A stretch of 64,000 nt of DNA, from NCBI GenBank assembly GCA_004376295.1, contig SOJZ01000028.1:1-64000 (forward strand), given 5' to 3'. The stretch's first letter is position 1. Each line of letters starts with the position of its first letter. The notes below the pieces were generated by a model. The model worked only from the letters and a program-made list of their open reading frames with translations, had not been told where the DNA came from and searched no databases. A program made the position numbers and the translations under genes. Source of the DNA: Candidatus Bathyarchaeota archaeon. GTDB taxonomy: Archaea; Thermoproteota; Bathyarchaeia; Bathyarchaeales; Bathyarchaeaceae. Below, one piece after another: positions 2,018 through 21,759 of the stretch.

Positions 2018-3838
2018 CTAACTGGGTGTTATTATTCCGTCTTTCATCATTATTTTTCTTTCTGCATAGTCGGCAATGTCTTGTTCATGGGTGATAACAA
2101 TGATTGTAGTTTTTGTTTCTTCATGGAATTTTTTGAGTAAATCCATGACTTGTTTTCCAGTTACAGAGTCCAAATCACCGGTTGGTTCATCGGCAAATAT
2201 CACGGCAGGACGATTGGTTAATGCCCGGGCGATGACTACACGTTGCATTTGCCCACCGCTCAATGTGGCGGGATACTGTTTAGCTTGCTGATCAAGCCCA
2301 ACTCCCTCTAGAAGATTTTCTATACGATCTTTCAAATCCTTGCTTAATCCAGCCAGATCTGCTGGCAACGCTACATTCTCTCGGGTGTCGAAATGAGGCA
2401 ACAATGTATAGGTTTGGAATATGAAACCCATCTCTAACAGTCTAGACTTGGATTTTGCAGAATCACCTAATTCATGAAGATTTTTTCCGCGAAACAGCAC
2501 AACTCCATAATCGGGTGTATCGAGACCTGCAATGCAATTTAAGAGAGTTGTTTTTCCTGCTCCAGAATTTCCTAAAATCGCAACAAATTCTCCCTCTTTA
2601 ATATCAAGATTCACTCCACGAAGAGCGTATACAGTTGTCTTTCCAAGATTGTAGTTCTTGGTTAATCCTCTCACAGCGAGAATAATGTCATCAGCCACGT
2701 CAAATGCGTCAGAATCCTTGTGGTCGAAAAGTTGTCTGTCAAAGCTGAAATAGGGAATATCGGATCCAAAGAGGTCTGTCCACGTTTTTAGAAGTTCAGC
2801 TTCAACAAACAAGTCAATACTTAATTCTGCTATGGACAGTAGCCGGGTCTGGAAGTCATTAACGGAATCGATGGTTTTTACTCCATTTTTCTGTTCATCC
2901 AGATAATCACGAAGGTGAATTTGACATTCTTGAAGTTTGTCTTGTACTTCGATTAGTAACGCTTTTCCATACTCGATTTCTGACGCCATTTCCGCAAGTG
3001 CCGCATTAAGGTTCACGGCATCGTTCTTTAAGTGATATGAGGGAAGTACCGTGCGGGGAACTTGGAATAGGTCAAAAATTCGAGAGATTACACTGCCTAT
3101 GTCATCTAAGGCACTGAGTTTTGCTGTTAAAATCCGGAGGAACAGTTCCAGTTTGGTCTGTAGTTTCTGGTTTTTGCTCCGATAGTGAGTTCCTTCCACT
3201 CCCAATTTCAGTCTTTCAAGCACACGATCCATTTCTTGTAGACGAGTAACCGTTGGTTTCAGAAATATCCTAAAGAAATTTGAAAAGAGTAATTTGTCAA
3301 CCAATTTGTCTATGTTCATTTTAGTTTCACTGTTTGAACTCTTGAAGATTGGAGAGTCAAATCCGGAGAGGAAAAACCGATGTTCTCGGTTCTCTACGAT
3401 GTCCCATGAAATCACAATACTTCTCGATTGAATCTCGCAGTGCATGTTTGGTATATCTTTGCTGATCTTCTCTAATCGGCTATCAAAGATCTTTGCAAGA
3501 TTGGGGTCGACCTCTTTGACAAAATCTTTGACGATTCTGGATGTTTCTCGTAATTCTTGGTTGTTTTTCAGTTCTTGTTCGAATTTGGACTTGTTGCCAA
3601 TGTAATACTTTGTGAAACTGTCAAGAGTTCTTTTTTCAAATTTCTCCATAGTTTTGCTGTCAATATTTCCGTCATCTTTTTGTCCAGATAAGACGATGAA
3701 TGTGTTGAGTTCTTGACTGTTAATGGCTGAAGCGGGAATTCCCAGACTCTTTCGATAATGTGACAAAAGCCGCTTTTGCAAGGTTACATTGTTGGATTGT
3801 GATGATTTGTCTATTAATCCTGCCGTGTAGATTCTCAT
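2018..3838 (-). CDS. ABC transporter ATPase with a 380-residue N-terminal extension
   Basis: The last ~226 residues are a LolD/MacB-type ABC ATPase: Walker A GNSGAGKT (about 423-430), Q-loop in FIFQTYTLL, signature LSGGQMQR (about 526) and Walker B VIFADEPTGDLDS. The first ~380 residues form a mostly helical, charged domain with no transmembrane segment and no family I recognise. The start overlaps the preceding ATPase stop by 4 nt, so this is the last gene of the operon PadR - FtsX permease - ATPase - ATPase, or at least translationally coupled to the upstream ATPase. It probably energises the large FtsX permease, possibly as one half of an ATPase heterodimer, with the extension sensing or recruiting a partner. 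ATPase call certain; the extension's role is unknown. Confidence 0.85.
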   Translation of the reverse strand: MRIYTAGLIDKSSQSNNVTLQKRLLSHYRKSLGIPASAINSQELNTFIVLSGQKDDGNIDSKTMEKFEKRTLDSFTKYYIGNKSKFEQELKNNQELRETSRIVKDFVKEVDPNLAKIFDSRLEKISKDIPNMHCEIQSRSIVISWDIVENREHRFFLSGFDSPIFKSSNSETKMNIDKLVDKLLFSNFFRIFLKPTVTRLQEMDRVLERLKLGVEGTHYRSKNQKLQTKLELFLRILTAKLSALDDIGSVISRIFDLFQVPRTVLPSYHLKNDAVNLNAALAEMASEIEYGKALLIEVQDKLQECQIHLRDYLDEQKNGVKTIDSVNDFQTRLLSIAELSIDLFVEAELLKTWTDLFGSDIPYFSFDRQLFDHKDSDAFDVADDIILAVRGLTKNYNLGKTTVYALRGVNLDIKEGEFVAILGNSGAGKTTLLNCIAGLDTPDYGVVLFRGKNLHELGDSAKSKSRLLEMGFIFQTYTLLPHFDTRENVALPADLAGLSKDLKDRIENLLEGVGLDQQAKQYPATLSGGQMQRVVIARALTNRPAVIFADEPTGDLDSVTGKQVMDLLKKFHEETKTTIIVITHEQDIADYAERKIMMKDGIITPS

Positions 3839-10478: not shown

Positions 10479-10594
10479 GAAAAACTGAATCACCTAAATG
10501 ATGAAGAAGAGAGAATGCATGTGTTATACGTAGTTTATATATATCTGCAAATGGGATACTGGGCAAATGAGAAAGCTTGGCTGGGACTCAAGCC

Positions 10595-11677
10595 ATGAGT
10601 GTGAAGTTCTTTACGTCTAGACGTTTCAAGACTCGATTGTCGAAAAAGTACGAAGAATTAAAGGGCTTGTACAATAGACTTGTGGATGAAGTCATGTACA
10701 TCCTAAGAGACGCCATAGAAAAAGACAAGGTAAAGATCCATAGCTTAAATCCCAGAGAAACCAAAATCAAGACTTTCAAGAGCTTCTACGATAAAGTGGT
10801 CAGTAGACAAATTAGGAAGAGCCAGTTCGAGGCTATTGAAGACATTGCTGGAGTTCGTGTCATATGCCTCTATCGGTCAGATTTGGCGAAAATAGGTGGA
10901 ATTATCTCAAAGAGTTTCGAGCTCATCAAAGCTGAAACCTCGACAACTCGGACAGAAGCACCATTTGGATATTCAAGTGACCACTACGTCGTTAAACTTC
11001 CCAAGGAGTGCAAAGGACCAAGGTATGACAACATAAAGAAGCTGAAATGTGAGGTTCAGGTTCGCACAATACCGATGGATGCATGGGCTTCTGTGTCGCA
11101 CCATTTGGATTACAAGCAAGAAGTAGACATCCCGAGAGAGTTGCGAACCACCTTTAATGCACTTGCTGGTCTTTTCTATGTTGCTGATACTGTTTTCGAA
11201 TTCTTTAGAAAGGGAATCGAGGAGTCGCGAGCCAATCTTATGAAAGCCGTTCGCGAAGACGCTTTTGACGTTAATCAAGAAATAAACTTGGATAGCCTAC
11301 AAGCATACATGAGATGGAAATATCCAGAAAGAACTATCTCGGCGTCTTCTGAAGTTTCATTGTTGGTCAAAGAACTCGGGGCATTTGGTCATAGGAACTT
11401 GCGCCAACTAGATGACAAAATCAACACCGCGTCATCGGTGCTAACACAATTCGAGAAGGAGTTTTTTGAGGCGCTAACACAAGCTGAAAAGGAGTTTGTT
11501 GGTGGAGACTTGGGTCGATATACTGCAGTAGGTGCAATTAGACATTCTCTGGATCTTACTGACGATGACTACTTCAATAGCCGGCATCCTGGAAAACCCG
11601 TGGAAAAACTCGTGGATAGTCTTTGGCTGAAAACTGGCAAGTTGATAAAGAAGCATAGGTCGAAACTGCGTTCATAG
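10595..11677 (+). CDS. RelA/SpoT nucleotidyltransferase-domain protein
   Basis: A 360-aa protein whose first ~190 residues resemble the (p)ppGpp synthetase fold. Motifs include DIAGVRVICLYRSDL (metal-binding Asp region), GYSSDHYVVKLP and CEVQVRTIPMDAWASVSHHLDYK (the E-V-Q-[IV]-R-T signature). No HD hydrolase, TGS or ACT domain is present. The C-terminal ~170 residues are helical and unfamiliar. Start: ATG 10595 (TTG 10577 also in frame); TATA-like TTTATATATATC at about 10529-10541. Alarmone enzymes of this class are unusual in archaea and many stand-alone members act as toxins or make other pyrophosphorylated nucleotides, so synthetase activity should not be assumed. Confidence 0.82.
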   Translation: MSVKFFTSRRFKTRLSKKYEELKGLYNRLVDEVMYILRDAIEKDKVKIHSLNPRETKIKTFKSFYDKVVSRQIRKSQFEAIEDIAGVRVICLYRSDLAKIGGIISKSFELIKAETSTTRTEAPFGYSSDHYVVKLPKECKGPRYDNIKKLKCEVQVRTIPMDAWASVSHHLDYKQEVDIPRELRTTFNALAGLFYVADTVFEFFRKGIEESRANLMKAVREDAFDVNQEINLDSLQAYMRWKYPERTISASSEVSLLVKELGAFGHRNLRQLDDKINTASSVLTQFEKEFFEALTQAEKEFVGGDLGRYTAVGAIRHSLDLTDDDYFNSRHPGKPVEKLVDSLWLKTGKLIKKHRSKLRS

Positions 11678-12280: not shown

Positions 12281-13327
12281 CTATGCCTTAACTTTCCTAT
12301 GGCTGCGTGGAAATAGATGACGTGTTCTTAGACCAAATCTTACGAGAGACAGCATTAGTGGAACTTCTATCAGAGGTCCTATGACTGTGGCTAATGCTGC
12401 ACCCGAGCCGATGCCGAAAAGGGTTGTTGCGACGGCAATAGCAACCTCGAAGTGACTGCTAGAGCCAATGAGTGTATTACATATCGACGATTCATAGCTC
12501 CAATTGGCAAGCCATGAGACTGCATAGGTCAACGAAACCATTATTGCATAACCAAGCAGCAAGGGAACAGCAATCAAAGCCACGGTCAAAGGTTGATTAA
12601 TAATAATCTCTCCTTGAAACGAGAACATAACTATCAATGTAGTTAACAAGGCAACAATCGATATCTTTCCCCAAACAGGCACATAGTTTTCGTCAAACCA
12701 TTTTTGACCCTTGCGATTGATGACTGCCCAACGAGAAATCGATGCACTTATGACCGGGACTACTATGAAGAACAGGACGCTGAGGGCAATCAGATCCCAT
12801 GGCACTGGAATCGAGCTCACACGCAGATAGAAAGCTGCTAAGGGAGCATATAGGAATACCATCAAAAGGGCATTGACCGCTGTGTTTACGAGTCCTTGCC
12901 CCAAATCTCCACGAGCAAGCATAATCCACCACATGACCATCGCCGTACATGGTGATATTCCAAGCAGGATGATGCCCGCAATGAATTCGGGGTTTCCTGG
13001 TAAAAGAGTGTTTGCCAAAAACGTCGCTAGTGGTGGGTTGATGACCCAATTTGCGATTATGGTAAGAAGTAATGGTTTCGGATTCCTTGTGGCTTTAACG
13101 ATGTCTCCAAACCTTATTTTAACAACTGTGGGATACATCATGAAGAAAAGGCAAACGCCTATTGGGATGGATAGCTGACCAAACTTCATCGAGTCTAGGT
13201 ACTGTCCGAAAACTGGAAGAAAACGCCCTAACAGCAGTCCCAAGATTATACATATTGCAATCCATAATGTTAGGTACTTCTCGAAGACTCCTAGTTTTGT
13301 TTCCTTATCTTCGGTCATGTTTGTCAT
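12281..13327 (-). CDS. acr3: ACR3-family arsenite efflux permease
   Basis: A ~348-aa, ten-helix transporter that expels As(III) (possibly Sb(III)) across the cytoplasmic membrane. The family signature GISPCTAMVMWW contains the essential Cys in TM4, and the second conserved helix ICNTLIGSSSHFEVAIAVA is present near residue 280. I prefer the ATG at 13327: the TATA-like TTTAAATC at about 13367-13373 would start transcription near 13343, downstream of the ATG at 13354. It lies downstream of arsR on the same strand with its own inverted repeat in front, so it can respond to arsenic independently. Confidence 0.94.
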   Translation of the reverse strand: MTNMTEDKETKLGVFEKYLTLWIAICIILGLLLGRFLPVFGQYLDSMKFGQLSIPIGVCLFFMMYPTVVKIRFGDIVKATRNPKPLLLTIIANWVINPPLATFLANTLLPGNPEFIAGIILLGISPCTAMVMWWIMLARGDLGQGLVNTAVNALLMVFLYAPLAAFYLRVSSIPVPWDLIALSVLFFIVVPVISASISRWAVINRKGQKWFDENYVPVWGKISIVALLTTLIVMFSFQGEIIINQPLTVALIAVPLLLGYAIMVSLTYAVSWLANWSYESSICNTLIGSSSHFEVAIAVATTLFGIGSGAALATVIGPLIEVPLMLSLVRFGLRTRHLFPRSHRKVKA

Positions 13328-13361
13328 CTCGTTGAATCGACAAGTGCAGCACATTGGATTA

Positions 13362-13426: not shown

Positions 13427-13825
13427 TTAGCTAGGGAATTCGAGGAACGCAAAAAGATTTCTGGTTAGTACTGGTTTTGCAAGGTTATAGAAGACCCACT
13501 TTCCTTCCTTTCTATCCTTCACAAGCCCGACGTTTTGCAGGATATTTAAGTGATGAGACGCAGTTGGTTGAGTCAAATCGAGGGCAACTGTAACCTCGCA
13601 GACGCACATCTCTCTAACGCTGAGAAGCTTTAGCATCTTTAGCCTCGTCCCATTGGCAAGAGCTTTCAGTAAACGACTTTTTCTACGAAGAAGATCGGGG
13701 TCTGCCAACTGATTGGCAAGCTTTCTTAGTCTCTTCGCATAATCTTCTAGGTCTTCCGATGGACGAAGGCCTGAGCAGAGCAATCTTTCAAGCCTTTTGC
13801 TGGATTTTTCGACTCGGTTTATCAT
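13427..13825 (-). CDS. arsR: ArsR/SmtB-family arsenic-responsive repressor
   Basis: 132 aa. A ~45-residue N-terminal helical extension precedes a winged helix (residues ~48-125) with DLTQPTASHHLNILQNVGLV as recognition region and WVFYNLA in the wing. The metalloid sensor motif EMCVCEV (Cys74, Cys76) in the alpha-3 helix matches the classical ELCVCDL As(III) site. It is divergent from the thiol/redox operon at 13990 and upstream of acr3, so one repressor can control both directions. The extension is longer than in most ArsR proteins. Confidence 0.93.
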   Translation of the reverse strand: MINRVEKSSKRLERLLCSGLRPSEDLEDYAKRLRKLANQLADPDLLRRKSRLLKALANGTRLKMLKLLSVREMCVCEVTVALDLTQPTASHHLNILQNVGLVKDRKEGKWVFYNLAKPVLTRNLFAFLEFPS

Positions 13826-13989
13826 TTATACCACCTTTAGACACACAGTGTAAGGTTTTCCAATGAAATAAACTTTGAAAACAGATTTAAATATTTTTAT
13901 CTATGGTGGAAAGCTTTATTTCAATACTTTTAAATATGTCGATTTATAAACATCCTAGCAAGCCGCATGAGATTAAGAGGCTGAAATAA
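13826..13989. promoter_or_regulatory. Divergent promoter region between arsR and the redox operon
   Basis: This 164-bp AT-rich spacer carries TATA-like TTTAAATAT near 13885-13893 and TTTTAAATATG near 13929-13939. It also has the imperfect dyad AGATTTAAATATTTTTATCT (13883-13902), resembling the acr3 operator half-sites. GAGG at about 13977 gives the downstream zinc-ribbon gene a ribosome-binding site. Confidence 0.6.
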
Positions 13990-14184
13990 ATGGTTAAGGA
14001 TGACGCTACGAAAAAATCATGTGTGTGTACTCAGAGGCTCACGGATATGCTTCGTGCTGCTCAGCCGGTCAAAAAACCTTCTTTGATGAAAGTAACTTGT
14101 GCCCATTGCGGGAAGGTGTTCCGGACAGACTCCGAAAGGGAATACTGCTTCGACTGTGAAGAGAAAATGAGGAGACAGAGATAG
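13990..14184 (+). CDS. Small zinc-ribbon protein
   Basis: 64 aa, first gene of the plus-strand operon. Cys pairs CxC at residues ~11-13, CAHC near 37-40 and CFDC near 54-57 suggest one zinc ribbon plus an extra N-terminal thiol pair; the C terminus is basic (EEKMRRQR). No enzyme motif. It is 12 bp ahead of the HdrA-like gene. Could be a metal-sensing accessory or small DNA/RNA-binding protein; not recognised as a named family. Confidence 0.75.
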   Translation: MVKDDATKKSCVCTQRLTDMLRAAQPVKKPSLMKVTCAHCGKVFRTDSEREYCFDCEEKMRRQR

Positions 14185-14196
14185 GAGGGACACCTT

Positions 14197-14568
14197 ATGG
14201 AGAGCAAGAAAATAGGCTTTATATTTTGCGTTTGCACTGGGAAATGTGCTGGCTTCGCTCAGCTGGACATCTGGGATTTCATTAACATCATCAGAACCGA
14301 GTACCCTGTGGAGTACGGCTTCATCCATCCTATGCTGTGTGATGAGGATGGCGAACGATTTTTGGAAGATTTCCTCAAGAAGGAAAGCAGGTATATTGTG
14401 GCCGGGTGTGCTCCTATAATGCAGAAGAAACTCTTCAGGGACGCCTTCAAGAAGGCAGGTTTAGACATCAACAAGGATTTGATCCCTCTAGATGTGAGAA
14501 ACATGAAACTAGAGGACGCGTTGAGCATTGTAAAGGATGCTCTGAAGGAGGCAGGTAAAGATGTCTGA
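14197..14568 (+). CDS. HdrA N-terminal-domain-like iron-sulfur protein
   Basis: 123 aa resembling only the N-terminal domain of heterodisulfide reductase subunit A. Cys11, Cys13 and Cys17 (FCVCTGKC), Cys48 (MLCDEDG) and Cys71 (VAGCAP) match the Cys set of that domain, and the alternating alpha/beta pattern (IVAGCAPIMQKKLFRDAFKKAG) fits. The FAD domain and ferredoxin inserts of full HdrA are missing. It overlaps the following dicluster ferredoxin by 8 nt, so the two probably form an electron-transfer pair. Location in an ars-linked operon suggests thiol/disulfide or metalloid redox chemistry; this is inference. Confidence 0.75.
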   Translation: MESKKIGFIFCVCTGKCAGFAQLDIWDFINIIRTEYPVEYGFIHPMLCDEDGERFLEDFLKKESRYIVAGCAPIMQKKLFRDAFKKAGLDINKDLIPLDVRNMKLEDALSIVKDALKEAGKDV

Positions 14569-14845
14569 GGAAACATACATGGGTGTACCGCGCAACGAAA
14601 TATCTTGGACTCCAAGAATAGACTATCAAAAATGTGATCTTTGCGACGGTGACCCTCAATGCCTTAAGTTTTGTCCCCATCAGGTATATGCTGTAGCTGG
14701 GCAACCAAGAAAATTGATTATAGAGAATCCAAATAACTGTGTGGTTTTCTGTCGTTCTTGCAGAAGAGTATGTGCTCCAGACGCTCTAAGTTTTCCAGAA
14801 AAGAAGAAGGTGCTAGCTTCAATTAAGAAGCTTAGAGGTTATTGA
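14561..14845 (+). CDS. Dicluster ferredoxin-like protein
   Basis: 94 aa with two Cys clusters: C25-x2-C28-x5-C34-x3-CP39 and C60-x3-C64-x2-C67-x3-C71. The spacings depart slightly from the canonical CxxCxxCxxxCP, having an insertion after the second Cys and CxxxC in the second set. Two [4Fe-4S] clusters are likely. Start ATG 14561 lies inside the end of the HdrA-like gene, with GGAGGCAG upstream. Probably the electron carrier between a cytoplasmic donor and the HdrA-like protein. Confidence 0.8.
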   Translation: MSEETYMGVPRNEISWTPRIDYQKCDLCDGDPQCLKFCPHQVYAVAGQPRKLIIENPNNCVVFCRSCRRVCAPDALSFPEKKKVLASIKKLRGY

Positions 14846-14857
14846 AACGGTGATTCT

Positions 14858-15265
14858 ATGTCAAAAAAAGGAAGGATATTTGTAATTCCTTGCAGCGGAA
14901 TCGGAAAAGCCTTGGGAACAGTAAGCAGGACTGCCATGTATGAAGTTATAGAGAAAATGCGACCAGAAGAGACTGCTACGGTTTGCCTTCCATTGTTGAC
15001 AATTGGTGACGAAGCAATCTTAAAACTTGTAAGAAACAACCTTTGCATATCAATTGATGGCTGTCCTTCTCAATGTGCACGCAGGAACATTGAAGCTTCC
15101 AGAGGCAAGCTAGCAGCTAACTTCATGGTAACTGACATTCTAAGAGAAAACAAGAAATTGAAGCCAGAAGCCGTCACCAAGCTAGGTCCAAAAGGCCTAG
15201 AACTTTCAAGTATACTGGCTCAAAAAATCGCAAGAAAAATTGACGAAATAAACAGTAGGGAATAA
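14858..15265 (+). CDS. DGC-domain putative zinc-binding protein 1
   Basis: 135 aa of the DGC family (named for its Asp-Gly-Cys motif). Features: PCSGIGKALGTVSR (Cys12), TVCLPLL (Cys43), Cys63 and SIDGCPSQC (Cys69, Cys73), followed by a C-terminal helix pair. These Cys are proposed to bind a metal. The first of three tandem paralogues, 2 bp before the next. Such proteins are often found near arsenic-resistance or thioredoxin genes in anaerobes, but the molecular function is unknown to me. Confidence 0.8.
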   Translation: MSKKGRIFVIPCSGIGKALGTVSRTAMYEVIEKMRPEETATVCLPLLTIGDEAILKLVRNNLCISIDGCPSQCARRNIEASRGKLAANFMVTDILRENKKLKPEAVTKLGPKGLELSSILAQKIARKIDEINSRE

Positions 15266-15266
15266 A

Positions 15267-15689
15267 ATGGCTATAGTAAAAAACAAAGTTGGAGTCGTCT
15301 CATGCAGCGGCGAAGACCTACCTGAAGGCACAATCTCCCGCCTTGCCACTCGCATTGTACTGGAAAAACTAAGGGCAAGCGACACAGTAACAATATGCCT
15401 TCCCCTGTTTCTCGCAGGAAGTGAAAATGAAAGAGCCTTCGCAAGAGTGTTTCCAACAATTGCCGTCGATGGGTGCAACAAAAAATGTGCAGAAATTGGA
15501 ACCCGAAAATATAGTGGCAAGCCAGTTGCAACAATTGTCGTCTCCGAAATCATGAAAGAACACCCTCACTTAAAAGCGAAATCCAGAGACAAGCTTGGCA
15601 ATGACGAAAAAGAACTTATCAATATAGTAGCTGAAAAAATCGCGGAGAAAGTTGATGAAGTTCTAAGAAAAAACAGAAAAAAGGTGTAA
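15267..15689 (+). CDS. DGC-domain putative zinc-binding protein 2
   Basis: 140 aa; second paralogue. VSCSGEDLPEGTISR (Cys13) replaces the CSGIGKALG form, so this copy has lost the Gly/Lys loop seen in copies 1 and 3. ICLPLF (Cys44) and VDGCNKKC (Cys70, Cys74) are retained. The C-terminal half ends in a long basic helix (RKNRKKV). It is probably translationally coupled to copy 1. Divergence among the three suggests distinct subunits of one complex rather than gene dosage. Confidence 0.8.
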   Translation: MAIVKNKVGVVSCSGEDLPEGTISRLATRIVLEKLRASDTVTICLPLFLAGSENERAFARVFPTIAVDGCNKKCAEIGTRKYSGKPVATIVVSEIMKEHPHLKAKSRDKLGNDEKELINIVAEKIAEKVDEVLRKNRKKV

Positions 15690-15693
15690 ACAT

Positions 15694-16095
15694 TTGAGTG
15701 AAGAAGAAAAGGTTGCAATAGTTGCTTGTGCAGGAATCGACAAAGCACTAGGTTCTGTAACTCGTGCATGCGCATTCAAGATCATGGAGAAATCGGAGCC
15801 GGAAGATTCTGTTCTAGTGTCCATCCCCCCTCTGGTTATTGATGCAACCCCCCATTCTGAATGGATAAAGAAATACCCTGCCATTACGATTGATGGATGC
15901 GCTGAACGTTGTGCCACAAAAATCGCCGTAAAAAAGGGGGGCAGAATAAGAGGAAGAGTGTTCATTCCACAAAGCATCCAAAAACATGGGTTGAAACCGA
16001 AGTCGTCTGCAGAGATTGGTCCTGAAGGAGAAAAACTTGCTGAAAAGATCGCTGAAGAAACAGTTCTACTAATCAACAAAATCTTGGGGAAGTGA
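15694..16095 (+). CDS. DGC-domain putative zinc-binding protein 3
   Basis: 133 aa; third paralogue, starting at TTG 15694 with GGTG upstream. ACAGIDKALGSVTR (Cys12) and TIDGCAERC (Cys69, Cys73) are present, and Cys26 is extra. The middle Cys of copies 1 and 2 is replaced by Ser (VSIPPL). If the four Cys form one metal site, this copy should bind differently or share a site with a partner. It is 4 bp before the lipoyl-protein gene. Confidence 0.8.
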   Translation: MSEEEKVAIVACAGIDKALGSVTRACAFKIMEKSEPEDSVLVSIPPLVIDATPHSEWIKKYPAITIDGCAERCATKIAVKKGGRIRGRVFIPQSIQKHGLKPKSSAEIGPEGEKLAEKIAEETVLLINKILGK

Positions 16096-16099
16096 GTGT

Positions 16100-16567
16100 T
16101 TGAAACATGAAGAAAATTTCCAGCTTAAAGTCTTAAAGTGGACTTTCCAAGTCCCAAAAGGCTTGTTTTATAACGAGAATGATTGTTGGGTGAAAATAGA
16201 GGGGCACAAAGCACGAGTCGGAATTACCGATTTCCTCCAAAGCATGGCCACAGACATTCTATTTGTTGAGTTCAAGGATGTTGGAACAGAGATTGAACAA
16301 TTGGATGAAGTGGCTTCTTTTGAATCGGTAAAGACTGTACTTGATTTGATATCGCCTGTGAGTGGCATCATAGTTGAAGTTAATGAGAAGTTATCGGAAA
16401 GACCTGAGCTTGTAAACCAGGACCCGTATGGAGAAGGGTGGTTCACTGTTTTGAAACTTAAGGACTTTGAAAGCGATCGAGAAAACCTTCTAGATGCTCA
16501 AAAGTACTTCGAAGTATTGAAAAGAAAGGTTGAATTGGAAAAAGAGAAACTAGGAAAACAGGGGTAA
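16100..16567 (+). CDS. Glycine-cleavage H-like lipoyl carrier protein
   Basis: 155 aa with the H-protein fold: Gly-Ile-Thr-Asp strand (RVGITDFLQ), FVEFKDVGTEI, the lipoylation motif ASFESVKTV (Lys78), ISPVSGIIVEVNEKL and DPYGEGWFTVLKL. It ends in a ~30-residue charged helix. TTG start at 16100. No glycine-cleavage P or T genes are nearby; instead it lies with HdrA-like, ferredoxin and DGC genes. That context recalls the lipoate-binding protein of the sulfur-oxidising sHdr system, where lipoate carries sulfur intermediates. A role in arsenic- or sulfur-linked thiol chemistry is inference. Confidence 0.85.
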   Translation: MKHEENFQLKVLKWTFQVPKGLFYNENDCWVKIEGHKARVGITDFLQSMATDILFVEFKDVGTEIEQLDEVASFESVKTVLDLISPVSGIIVEVNEKLSERPELVNQDPYGEGWFTVLKLKDFESDRENLLDAQKYFEVLKRKVELEKEKLGKQG

Positions 16568-16571
16568 TTGA

Positions 16572-16818
16572 ATGAAAAGAGCGCGTTTTGAAAGGATACG
16601 TAAGAAATACCGAAATACCAAGCGTGAAGAGACCAACGTCGACATTTTATCCCTGAAATTGGAGATCGAGTCCTGTAAGGAACTTTCAAGCTACAGGTGA
16701 AAACAATGAGGATTTGATAGCCGAAGCACAAGACATGTTGGTTGATTTGATAAAGATCATTGATGAGGGTCATTGTCATCCATTCAGACCCAAAGAAACT
16801 TTAACTGCAGCATGGTGA
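16572..16818 (+). pseudogene. Small gene split by a frameshift (or sequencing error)
   Basis: An ATG at 16572 opens 42 codons (KRARFERIRKKYRNTKREE, then TNVDILSLKLEIESCKE) before TGA 16698-16700. From about 16681 the neighbouring frame continues with a coherent acidic segment (NFQATGENNEDL, then IAEAQDMLVDLIKIIDEGHC) to TGA 16816-16818. Joined, they would make a ~80-aa protein with no TM, filling the gap between the lipoyl gene and the thioredoxin gene. Either a decayed gene, a base-calling error, or recoding. Family unknown. Confidence 0.55.
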
Positions 16819-16828
16819 GGGCGAAGAA

Positions 16829-17530
16829 TTGCCAAAAAAGAATAAGAAGAGCTGGAAGGAAAGACAGCAAGAGAAACAGATAAGGCGGCAGAGGGCTCAA
16901 GAGGCCTATCGGATACATAAGGAAAGAGAAGCTGAAAGAAAGCCTCGGCAATGGCCTAAAGGCAAAATAGTTGTCGGAATTTGTCTGGTTGCCCTGGTAC
17001 TAGGAGCCTATGGAGCATGGCAGTACTACATTCAACTCCCTCCAGCAATCGGTGATGGAACAAATGGCAAGCCCCCACCAACAGGCTCAGCTCCAGACTT
17101 CTCTCTGAAAGACATAGACGGAACTCAATTCTCACTCAAGGGACATAGTGGAGAGGTAATTGCTATTCATTTTATGGCTGTAGGCTGCGGTGGACAAATC
17201 TATCCTATAAACGACTATCAACTTAAGCAACTAAAAATCATGTGTAACAACTATTGCAGCAACAAACCTGTTACTGCAGTCACCGTTGCTGTAGCAACCT
17301 GCGCAAACAGCGACCTCGCACGAATCCGAACAAACTACGGTATCACTTGGGCTTTAGGAAACGACTATGATGATGGAATAATGGATATAGTCAACGCCTA
17401 CACAGCATATTCTATAAAAGATGGAACAATCGTTCTCATAGACAAAACATTCAATGTGGCCAAAATATACACCGAAACTATGACTGCCGACACACTGTTG
17501 TCAGAAATCAATCAACTTCTAGGAGCCTGA
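16829..17530 (+). CDS. Membrane-anchored thioredoxin-fold (TlpA/peroxiredoxin-like) protein
   Basis: 233 aa. A very basic cytoplasmic N terminus (residues 1-46) and one TM helix (~47-64) are followed by a Pro-rich linker and an extracytoplasmic thioredoxin-fold domain beginning APDFSLKDIDGTQFSL. The active-site region reads HFMAVGCGGQ (Cys120), without a CxxC; Cys139/Cys143 (CNNYC) and Cys158 may supply the partner thiol. Followed 8 bp later by ccdA, the usual supplier of electrons to such proteins. It likely reduces or traps a substrate outside the membrane; start TTG 16829. Confidence 0.82.
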   Translation: MPKKNKKSWKERQQEKQIRRQRAQEAYRIHKEREAERKPRQWPKGKIVVGICLVALVLGAYGAWQYYIQLPPAIGDGTNGKPPPTGSAPDFSLKDIDGTQFSLKGHSGEVIAIHFMAVGCGGQIYPINDYQLKQLKIMCNNYCSNKPVTAVTVAVATCANSDLARIRTNYGITWALGNDYDDGIMDIVNAYTAYSIKDGTIVLIDKTFNVAKIYTETMTADTLLSEINQLLGA

Positions 17531-17538
17531 AAAAAAGG

Positions 17539-18234
17539 ATGCTTGAGGAATCTATTGGCCTGTTCTTCTTAGGGATTGCAACCTTTCTTTCCCCTTGTTC
17601 CATTGCACTCATTTCGGTCTATCTAACCTACGCTGTAGGCATCAGCAAGAACATACGAAAGGGATTTGTAATTGGTTGCAGCTTCGCTGTAGCCATGTGT
17701 CTAATTTTCTTCTTTCTCGGATACGCTGTATCCTCTCTTATTCCGGTAGATCCGGCTAGCTATCGATTTTTCTTCGGCATTTCTGGCATTCTTCTTATAT
17801 TCTTCGGAATCAACAACTTGGGTCTGTTTAAGAAAATCCACTTCACAAGCAACGCTAGCAGTTCTTTTGCTGAACGAATTAATGCTTTGAAGTTGACTGC
17901 TTTGACGCGTTTTTCAAAATATAATTATGCCGTGGGGTCATTTCTGTTTGGAGTAGTCATTTCTTTAGCTTTAGGTCCGTGTTCGTTATCTTTGGTTTTG
18001 CCTGCGATACTGCTAACCATTTTCAGTGCACCGACACCTTATCACGGTGGCCTTTTACTTTCAACTTTTGGTCTGGGCCACGCTTTGCCAGTAATTCTTT
18101 TAAGTGTGCTGTTAGCGACAGCGCGCAAGGCGGTAACAGAAAAAACTGCTACAGCAAGTAAATGGCTAACAAAGATTTTTGGAATAGCCTTTGTTGTAAT
18201 TGGAATAGTCATGGTTGGTGTGTTGGGAGGATGA
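17539..18234 (+). CDS. ccdA: CcdA/DsbD-type thiol electron transporter
   Basis: 231 aa, six TM helices in two three-helix repeats. Each repeat carries a Pro-Cys motif: FLSPCSIALISVY (Cys20) and LALGPCSLSLVLP (Cys near 148), the redox pair that carries electrons from cytoplasmic thioredoxin to extracytoplasmic acceptors. It lies between the membrane-anchored thioredoxin-fold protein and a small cytoplasmic thioredoxin-like protein, so donor, transporter and acceptor are encoded together. Confidence 0.9.
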   Translation: MLEESIGLFFLGIATFLSPCSIALISVYLTYAVGISKNIRKGFVIGCSFAVAMCLIFFFLGYAVSSLIPVDPASYRFFFGISGILLIFFGINNLGLFKKIHFTSNASSSFAERINALKLTALTRFSKYNYAVGSFLFGVVISLALGPCSLSLVLPAILLTIFSAPTPYHGGLLLSTFGLGHALPVILLSVLLATARKAVTEKTATASKWLTKIFGIAFVVIGIVMVGVLGG

Positions 18235-18239
18235 TAAAA

Positions 18240-18500
18240 ATGAAGAAAAACAAAGTGAAAGTCGAAGTCTTTGTGTCTCTAGGCTCCTGTGTCTGCAATT
18301 TCGCGCCACTTATGGAGAAAGTGGGATATGTAACATCAAAGTTCAAAGATTTGGTAGAAGTTCAAATGAAGTCAACCAAGTCATCAGAAGCATCTAAATA
18401 TGGAGTCCAAGACATGTGCATAGTAGTAAATGGAAAAATTAAGCTTCCCTCAGACTTTGACGAAGAAGAGCTTGAGGATACAATTTTAAAAAGTAGTTAA
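18240..18500 (+). CDS. Small thioredoxin/glutaredoxin-like protein
   Basis: 86 aa from ATG 18240, chosen because GGGAGG sits 9 nt upstream; an ATG at 18231 overlapping the ccdA stop is too close to it. The sequence VEVFVSLGSCVCNFAPLMEKV is a thioredoxin-like beta-alpha start with a CxC (Cys17, Cys19) in place of CxxC. A conserved-looking DMCIVVNGKI, followed by strand and helix, fits the small archaeal thioredoxin fold (MTH895-like). Last gene of the operon; likely the cytoplasmic electron donor to CcdA. Confidence 0.78.
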   Translation: MKKNKVKVEVFVSLGSCVCNFAPLMEKVGYVTSKFKDLVEVQMKSTKSSEASKYGVQDMCIVVNGKIKLPSDFDEEELEDTILKSS

Positions 18501-20619: not shown

Positions 20620-21759
20620 TCACTTATTTTTCAATTTTATCTGGTTTTGAAGCCCTATCCTTTTAACAGACACGATCTCCATCCTTTCTAATCTCTTAAC
20701 CAATCTCCAAAGACTCGTCCGCGGCATATCCGGATATCTATCCCTAATCTCAGACTCGAAAGCTTTGCCTCCACTATCCTCTAAGAAGCGTATTACTTCT
20801 TTGTCCTCTTGTCTCAGAGAAATGTGTTCTTTGATTATTTTTTCTGCACTGGGTGCTTTTATCCACCTTAATACCAGAAGACTTCCGATGATCACCACTG
20901 CTACAGTTACAATCAAATAGATTGCGAAAATTGGGATTAACGGAGCCTCTTTGACATTGAACCCACCGCTCAGTTCACCTATCTCAACATCATAAGTTCC
21001 CGCTTCTTCTTTAGTGACTTTAAACTGAACTGCTGTTGAAGCTCCCGCATCCAATGTTATTGTTTTAGTATCCTCTACTACTTGGTTAACCTTCAATGCA
21101 AGGGTGTAAGAGCCTTCTTCTTCGCCAATATTAGTTAAAACAAGAGAGACTGTTACTTCGTTGCCTACTTCAACCTCAGCTGGATTAACTGTAAGGTCAC
21201 TAACTCTAAAAAGTGCTGGACCAATTATAGGCAGTACATAGCTTATCTCCCACTCATCAGGATACAATGAGAGAGTTATTGTCCCATCTTCTGTATCTAT
21301 TGAAGTGGGCATCTCGTTTAGATACACTATTGCTGATTCCTCTGGCAAGTACACAGTAAGGTTGTAAGGGTTCTGAACTAATAGAGTCCATACGCCAGAT
21401 TCCTTCTCAGTCAATTCAACAGTGTCGTATTCGAGTAGAACCCTACTAGCTCCTAGACTAAATATAGTCATATTTGATCCAACTACATCATAGTCTAAGA
21501 CGGTCTGATTCTCATCATCAACAACTACATTCTCAACCAAAGAAGAGAGAAGCTCCAATGATATAGAAGGAAAGGTTTCATTTACAAAAAGAACTTGACT
21601 TACATGAACCAATCCATCTCTATAAACAGTTAATTCTACAGATTCAATCTGGTATCCTATTTCGCCAGCTGAAATGGTTGGAGTAATTCCTAGCATGAGG
21701 AGAAATATTACTCCAAACAAACACATCGTGAGATTAGTGCTTCTCTTCATTAAAGCCAC
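20620..21759 (-). CDS. Membrane-bound one-component regulator (extracellular domain, CARDB-like, TM, winged helix)
   Basis: 379 aa. Signal/anchor at residues ~8-30; an extracellular beta-rich domain to about 195; a CARDB-like domain (VNPAEVEVGNEVTVSLVLTN, residues ~200-280); one TM helix (IPIFAIYLIVTVAVVIIGSLL); and a cytoplasmic winged helix (AFESEIRDRYPDMPRTSLWRLVKRLERM). The C-terminal part resembles archaeal membrane-associated transcription regulators (COG2512-like). It could couple a surface signal directly to gene control. Flanked by TGCA repeats at 20425 and 21870, and convergent with the surface-protein genes. Confidence 0.8.
   Translation of the reverse strand: MALMKRSTNLTMCLFGVIFLLMLGITPTISAGEIGYQIESVELTVYRDGLVHVSQVLFVNETFPSISLELLSSLVENVVVDDENQTVLDYDVVGSNMTIFSLGASRVLLEYDTVELTEKESGVWTLLVQNPYNLTVYLPEESAIVYLNEMPTSIDTEDGTITLSLYPDEWEISYVLPIIGPALFRVSDLTVNPAEVEVGNEVTVSLVLTNIGEEEGSYTLALKVNQVVEDTKTITLDAGASTAVQFKVTKEEAGTYDVEIGELSGGFNVKEAPLIPIFAIYLIVTVAVVIIGSLLVLRWIKAPSAEKIIKEHISLRQEDKEVIRFLEDSGGKAFESEIRDRYPDMPRTSLWRLVKRLERMEIVSVKRIGLQNQIKLKNK

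Follow-up and report, generated by a model that had tools for sequence, protein, structure and literature searches.

What is the role of an operon that combines a lipoyl carrier, iron–sulfur proteins and three members of the DGC family, and that is transcribed divergently from the gene of an arsenic repressor? The question is raised by positions 13427–18500 of a 64,000-nucleotide stretch, hereafter the window, of contig SOJZ01000028.1 from a Candidatus Bathyarchaeota archaeon (assembly GCA_004376295.1, 1.89 Mb). A preliminary description placed arsR and acr3 on the minus strand and ten divergent genes on the plus strand (13990–18500), and every gene that it named is present. Six of these, encoding a stand-alone HdrA N-terminal domain protein (HdrA-N), a dicluster [4Fe-4S] ferredoxin, three DGC proteins (DGC1, DGC2 and DGC3) and a GcvH-like lipoyl carrier, form a core which may be, with a probability of roughly 0.4 as judged from sequence and gene context, a cytoplasmic redox module that is repressed by ArsR and detoxifies arsenic in anaerobes.

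A six-part core in archaea and bacteria

A GTDB-wide scan yielded 173 stretches encoding relatives, the best 80 of which were fetched; 79 were usable gene neighbourhoods. The fetched loci are those most similar to the query and thus not an even survey. In about 70 of the 79 neighbourhoods HdrA-N, the ferredoxin, DGC3, GcvH, DGC1 and DGC2 recur together, usually in the order HdrA-N, ferredoxin, DGC3-GcvH, DGC1, DGC2. The archaeal carriers comprise Bathyarchaeota, Loki-, Heimdall-, Thor-, Sigyn- and Jordarchaeia and Nezhaarchaeota, and the bacterial carriers Clostridia (including Clostridium ljungdahlii and Acetobacterium), Bacteroidota, Actinomycetota, Desulfovibrio and others. Because the gene order recurs across phyla, the locus is far beyond chance. 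The possibility raised in the preliminary description, that these genes are never clustered elsewhere, is thus contradicted in many phyla.

Beyond Bathyarchaeota a single polypeptide comprises DGC3 and GcvH, in 65 of the 65 GcvH open reading frames longer than 250 residues that the count covers. The window encodes them as two neighbouring genes, whose order matches the N- to C-terminal order of the fusion. Most phyla stay together in a tree of the concatenated proteins, from which the module is old and has been transferred little in recent times among the sampled loci; one 'Alphaproteobacteria' bin, which may be mis-binned, is placed inside Bacteroidota. A search for plasmid spread of the module gave no match.

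The HdrA-N gene (14197–14568, plus strand) encodes a protein of 123 residues without a match in Pfam, for which the preliminary assignment as HdrA N-terminal-like is nevertheless borne out by sequence, fold and Fe-S cysteines. The protein matches HdrA of PDB entry 7bkb (phmmer, E = 7e-5), and its predicted fold, with a predicted local distance difference test score (pLDDT) of 87.6, gives seven significant PDB matches in Foldseek, all of which are HdrA (best E = 4.4e-6, TM-scores of 0.64–0.73 on the query). Cysteines 11, 13, 17, 48 and 71 are invariant among 32 aligned sequences. The adjacent ferredoxin (14561–14845, plus strand) shows Fer4-family matches below the Pfam cut-off, and each of its eight conserved cysteines is retained in 67–69 of 69 copies.

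The three DGC proteins, encoded on the plus strand at 14858–15265 (DGC1), 15267–15689 (DGC2) and 15694–16095 (DGC3), belong to family PF08859 with scores of 58.2, 57.5 and 47.0 bits, respectively, against a curated cut-off of 27 bits, and are the only DGC proteins encoded in the source genome. They represent three orthologous groups, each with the pattern C-x30-C-x25-C-x3-C; the four cysteines are invariant in DGC1 (70 orthologues) and DGC2 (72 orthologues). The predicted structure of DGC1 is confident (pLDDT 94.3), and a sequence search of the PDB with the DGC proteins gave no relative of solved structure. To our knowledge the DGC family has no established function. The cysteine spacing of HdrA-N and the DGC proteins is alike, and one fused DGC weakly matched HdrA-N (3e-4); a single homologous family of HdrA-N and DGC proteins was considered, but a profile comparison did not support it.

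The lipoyl carrier (16100–16567, plus strand; PF01597, 1.7e-38) contains an ESVK site with the lipoyl lysine at position 78. Within the E-S/A-x-K motif of the module GcvH proteins both the glutamate and the lysine are retained in 73 of 73 sequences. An N-terminal cysteine occurs in 56 of the 73, a C-terminal cysteine column is absent, and the signature NENDxW sets these proteins apart from the glycine cleavage H-protein. Lipoylation is possible in this organism, because LplA, LipS1 and LipS2, the latter two scoring over their model cut-offs, are encoded in the genome; the lipoate ligase and synthase that the preliminary description proposed to look for are thus present.

The source genome has five GcvH-domain genes, two GcvH other than the window copy keep the lipoyl lysine, and the Hdr operons of this genome are separate from the module. 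Elsewhere in this genome an HdrA gene lies directly upstream of LplA (L057), and on contig C29 an HdrA/HdrB/HdrC-like cluster, which includes a CoA-disulfide-reductase-like flavoprotein, has a GcvH gene on either side (L058:305–14259). On contig C16 tandem proteins (L059:2047–2778 and 2779–3396) combine a GCV_H domain with an N-terminus that by eye resembles a ribbon-helix-helix and has no Pfam match. Their lipoyl lysine is replaced (ETWW/ETWM), and an Hdr operon follows shortly downstream; they may be regulators with a dead lipoyl domain. A pairing of GcvH with Hdr proteins seems to be general in this genome.

Linkage to arsenic genes

The ArsR-family repressor (13427–13825, minus strand) scores over the cut-off of NF033788 and carries, in the region of the DNA recognition helix, the Cys-x-Cys motif of arsenite-sensing ArsR proteins (REMCVCEV), both cysteines of which are invariant in the 16 ArsR proteins of a bathyarchaeal alignment. 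Cys-x-Cys is found at the known arsenite site in 51 of 60 ArsR proteins encoded near the module. The Acr3 arsenite efflux permease (12281–13354, minus strand; TIGR00832, 340 bits against a cut-off of 282.8 bits) lies outside the 13427–18500 range. Within the class, 257 genomes were scanned for the stand-alone HdrA-N protein at E < 1e-30; 20 encode it, and an ArsR gene lies within ∼2.5 kb in all 20.

Neighbours counted in the 79 loci are ArsR (62), Acr3 (40), CcdA (31), dihydrolipoyl dehydrogenase (Lpd, 27), a PF13192 thioredoxin (22) and ArsP (16), followed by LplA (14), low-molecular-weight (LMW) ArsC-type proteins (12), ArsA (8), rhodanese (8) and ArsD (2). Where the sequence extends at least 6 kb to either side of the module (47 loci), an ars-type gene of any sort is present in 44 loci, and an ars gene besides arsR (Acr3, ArsP, ArsA, ArsD or LMW ArsC type) in 35. 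As estimated from genome sizes, a given single-copy gene is expected inside a 16-kb stretch in ∼1% of cases or fewer. Among 121 other neighbours classified with Pfam, LMWPc (the ArsC type), thioredoxin, DsbD/CcdA and methyltransferases are the leading families; the two LMWPc-family genes of the source genome are both located away from the module. At the genome level Acr3 is present in 39 of 50 carriers. The association of DGC, H-protein and HdrA-N genes with arsR, which the preliminary description suggested to search for, is strongly positive. Both the arsenic link of the module and the lipoylation of GcvH, a modification predicted from the encoded machinery, are well supported.

The locus of Fusibacter sp. 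3D3 (L105) encodes ArsR, Lpd, HdrA-N, ferredoxin, DGC-GcvH, DGC1, DGC2, a thioredoxin-type protein and CcdA. This bacterium grows on arsenate without ArrAB, and ArsR-1 (WP_069871038) and Fdx-3 (WP_069871041) were listed for it without being connected (PMC9751042). Their accession numbers are three apart, as the gene order of the locus predicts, and from this numbering, rather than from a sequence comparison, we infer that they are module proteins. The best match of Fdx-3 was found in Sedimentibacter saalensis (PMC9751042), which also carries the module (L130).

Proposed function and alternative explanations

In the proposed mechanism arsenite would release ArsR, and LplA, LipS1 and LipS2 would lipoylate the GcvH domain. 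The lipoyl arm may then be reduced by NADH via Lpd and by ferredoxin via the HdrA-N and dicluster proteins, and swing to the four-cysteine sites of the DGC proteins, in cis for DGC3 and in trans for DGC1 and DGC2, where pentavalent arsenic species would be converted to the trivalent form for export by Acr3 or ArsP. The substrate could be arsenate, or more likely, because ArsC adjoins the module in some species, a species on which ArsC acts poorly, for instance a thio- or methylarsenate. The As(V)/As(III) couple has a positive potential. Lipoamide, with an E0′ of −0.29 V (PMC6067878), lies well below it, and arsenic reduction would therefore be the favoured direction. Substrate and direction are nevertheless proposed tentatively, at a confidence short of even. 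A more specific claim, which we regard as doubtful, is that the module represents a novel class of arsenic reductase that depends on lipoate and Fe-S proteins and draws on ferredoxin and NADH; if true, it could explain how organisms such as Fusibacter sp. 3D3 grow on arsenate although they lack ArrAB.

Several observations weigh against a role in arsenic reduction. The window DGC3 has lost one of its four cysteines, the second being replaced by serine, and a PDB fold search with DGC1 gave no significant match and did not pin down a catalytic centre. Lpd, a key partner in loci elsewhere, does not occur in the window operon, a gap that the preliminary description had passed over, and the best Lpd homologue in the genome scores 332.8 bits, below the family cut-off of 408.8 bits. 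No ars gene is in reach in 10 of the 79 loci, mostly on short contigs. In the order of C. ljungdahlii, where 110 of 195 genomes have Acr3, the enrichment among carriers is not significant (8 of 9 versus 102 of 186, p = 0.08), and the arsenic case rests for this reason on physical linkage. Plain arsenate reduction is already covered where ArsC-type genes adjoin the module (12 of 79 loci), and Fusibacter sp. 3D3 itself has two working ArsC enzymes (PMC9751042).

The same gene set could instead serve as an arsenite chaperone or buffer, in which the lipoyl dithiol and the DGC cysteines bind As(III) and pass it to Acr3 or ArsP, while Lpd and ferredoxin merely keep the thiols reduced. Dithiols bind As(III) tightly, the module proteins have many invariant cysteines, efflux pump genes are adjacent, and ArsD, a known metallochaperone, is among the nearby genes. 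However, a pure binder would need neither the dicluster ferredoxin nor HdrA-N, which are the most conserved parts, and the eight conserved ferredoxin cysteines indicate electron transfer; we consider a chaperone unlikely. Comparable doubt attaches to a sulfur relay, in which the lipoyl arm carries sulfane sulfur as in the sHdr system, thioarsenates or persulfides are desulfurated and ArsR senses sulfur stress. LbpA of sHdr is GcvH-like and essential for Hdr-like sulfur oxidation (PMC6067878), ArsR-type repressors control sHdr (PMC12423496), and rhodanese genes (8 of 79 loci) and, in a few loci, TusA/YeeE-like genes accompany the module. Such loci are a minority, however, the arsenite-site motif of most nearby ArsR proteins points to arsenic, and the core is without HdrB or HdrC. 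LbpA has two conserved cysteines, one N- and one C-terminal, except in some archaeal proteins (PMC6067878), whereas the module GcvH has the N-terminal one only.

Supply of reductant to ArsC, with electrons passing from ferredoxin or NADH over the lipoyl arm and thioredoxin-like proteins to regenerate ArsC in place of NADPH-thioredoxin reductase, would agree with the predominance of thioredoxin-family and LMW ArsC-type genes among the other neighbours. It is a distinctly improbable explanation, as ArsC is absent beside the window module and in most loci, and the three DGC proteins would be left unexplained. An ordinary glycine cleavage H-protein, or a chance neighbourhood, is hardly credible. 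The genome does encode GcvPA and GcvPB, and the H-protein scores over the gcvH model; but GcvPA/GcvPB are on contig C12 and not on the window contig, the module GcvH separates from the other GcvH proteins of the genome, with modest support, and the DGC fusion and the neighbours kept across phyla contradict both ideas. The H-protein thus does not adjoin glycine cleavage genes, and its membership in a complete glycine cleavage system, which the preliminary description had named as fatal to its proposal, finds no support. A redox module for arsenic detoxification is preferred here to these alternatives.

Bathyarchaeal additions, variants and known systems

Around the core, the bathyarchaeal operon contains several additional genes on the plus strand. 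A small zinc-ribbon protein (13990–14184) shows weak zinc-ribbon matches and six cysteines that are invariant in 8 copies. The intergenic spacing is −8 to +12 bp, with a 261-bp gap as the sole exception. This gap holds a frameshifted copy (16572–16818) of a conserved gene of 76–81 residues, readable only across two frames and intact in L037, L041, L044 and L045; the broken copy is either genuine decay or an assembly error. It is followed by a membrane-anchored TlpA/ResA-like protein (16829–17530; ResA model, 6e-6), with five cysteines invariant in six copies and a single cysteine (CGGQ) where CxxC usually sits, by a CcdA/DsbD-type transmembrane thiol carrier (17539–18234; PF02683, 43.6 bits) with invariant cysteines 20 and 148, and by a small CxC thioredoxin-like protein (18231–18500), in which the CVC motif and a third cysteine are invariant in six copies and for which a Pfam search gave no match. 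An assignment of the CcdA protein as 'ArsG', suggested by an HMM alone, was rejected, since its score of 38.7 bits falls far short of the cut-off of 200.

In Bathyarchaeota these TlpA-CcdA-Trx proteins may carry the thiol relay to the other side of the membrane. The full set is mainly bathyarchaeal, with some CcdA near the module in 31 of the 79 loci. Of the thiol/lipoate relay under ArsR that was originally envisaged, a lipoyl, Fe-S and thiol redox module tied to ars genes thus stands, with ArsR control probable, whereas the CcdA/TlpA/CxC relay falls outside the universal core. A remnant operon (L056:7887–10526) retains ArsR, the zinc ribbon, a truncated HdrA-N frame and TlpA-CcdA-Trx, the ferredoxin, DGC and GcvH genes being gone, and from it the membrane relay seems to be separable from the core.

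The divergent promoter region contains the palindrome CAATACTTTTAAATATGTCG (13922–13941, no strand assigned), and perfect AT-rich palindromes of this kind occur in the equivalent intergenic region of L067, L071, L072 and L073. The element is indistinguishable from an archaeal TATA box and is tentatively regarded as a candidate operator only.

Further variants were observed. In a distant bathyarchaeal form (L048–L054) only HdrA-N and ArsR remain, together with one or two ferredoxins, and neither GcvH nor DGC genes adjoin them. L040:570–3755 (L070) contains five tandem DGC genes versus the usual three of the bathyarchaeal module. Several Asgard modules have a DUF166-family gene directly downstream of DGC2 (for example L080:10449–11171, Lokiarchaeota). 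Elsewhere in the window, a RelA/SpoT-domain protein (PF04607) is encoded at 10577–11677, upstream of the arsenic genes, and 20620–21759 encodes a membrane protein that combines a CARDB domain with a DUF7343-like C-terminal region.

The domains of the module are known, but the module itself, its DGC-GcvH fusion and its connection with arsenic seem not to have been described before: searches of the open literature for DGC with arsenic and for GcvH or Lpd with ars operons gave no description of it. The six-part module, whose order is conserved in both archaea and bacteria and in many anaerobes, joins lipoic acid with Hdr-type iron–sulfur chemistry. It would give the DGC family a testable role and provide a concrete candidate for how anaerobes deal with arsenic species outside the reach of ArsC and for how arsenate can support growth where ArrAB is lacking, and cultured carriers exist in C. 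ljungdahlii and Acetobacterium.

Three kinds of domain make up HdrA: an Fe-S domain at the N-terminus, a flavin domain with the disulfide-reductase fold, and ferredoxin domains. The HdrA-N protein equals the first of these in methanogen HdrA by sequence and fold, and together with Lpd, a pyridine nucleotide-disulfide oxidoreductase, and the dicluster ferredoxin it may resemble a HdrA split into parts. Unlike methanogen HdrA, however, the module consists of small separate proteins with an extra invariant cysteine, and HdrBC is absent. With the glycine cleavage system the module shares the H-protein fold, the invariant lipoyl lysine and, in many loci, an Lpd partner, whereas it differs in the GcvH signature, the DGC fusion and the absence of P- and T-proteins, neither of which was seen in the core at the loci examined. 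The ars operons (ArsR, Acr3/ArsP, ArsA, ArsC, ArsD) have the same neighbourhood and regulator class, but lipoyl, HdrA-N and DGC genes are not among their components in the ars-operon papers examined.

A close likeness is also seen to the sHdr-LbpA system of Hyphomicrobium and Sulfolobales, in which a GcvH-like lipoyl carrier also works with Hdr-related Fe-S proteins, and a dedicated lipoate ligase, LipS1/LipS2, an ArsR-type regulator and an archaeal Lpd link are likewise found (PMC6067878, PMC10332631, PMC12423496). The preliminary description had drawn on this pathway, but the module is not sHdr: HdrB, HdrC and a full HdrA are absent from the operon, only the HdrA N-domain belongs to the core, three DGC proteins and the DGC-GcvH fusion are added, the neighbours are arsenic genes and the carriers are mainly anaerobes. 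If the proposed function is correct, the module would be a further lipoate-dependent system beside the 2-oxoacid dehydrogenases, glycine cleavage and sHdr.

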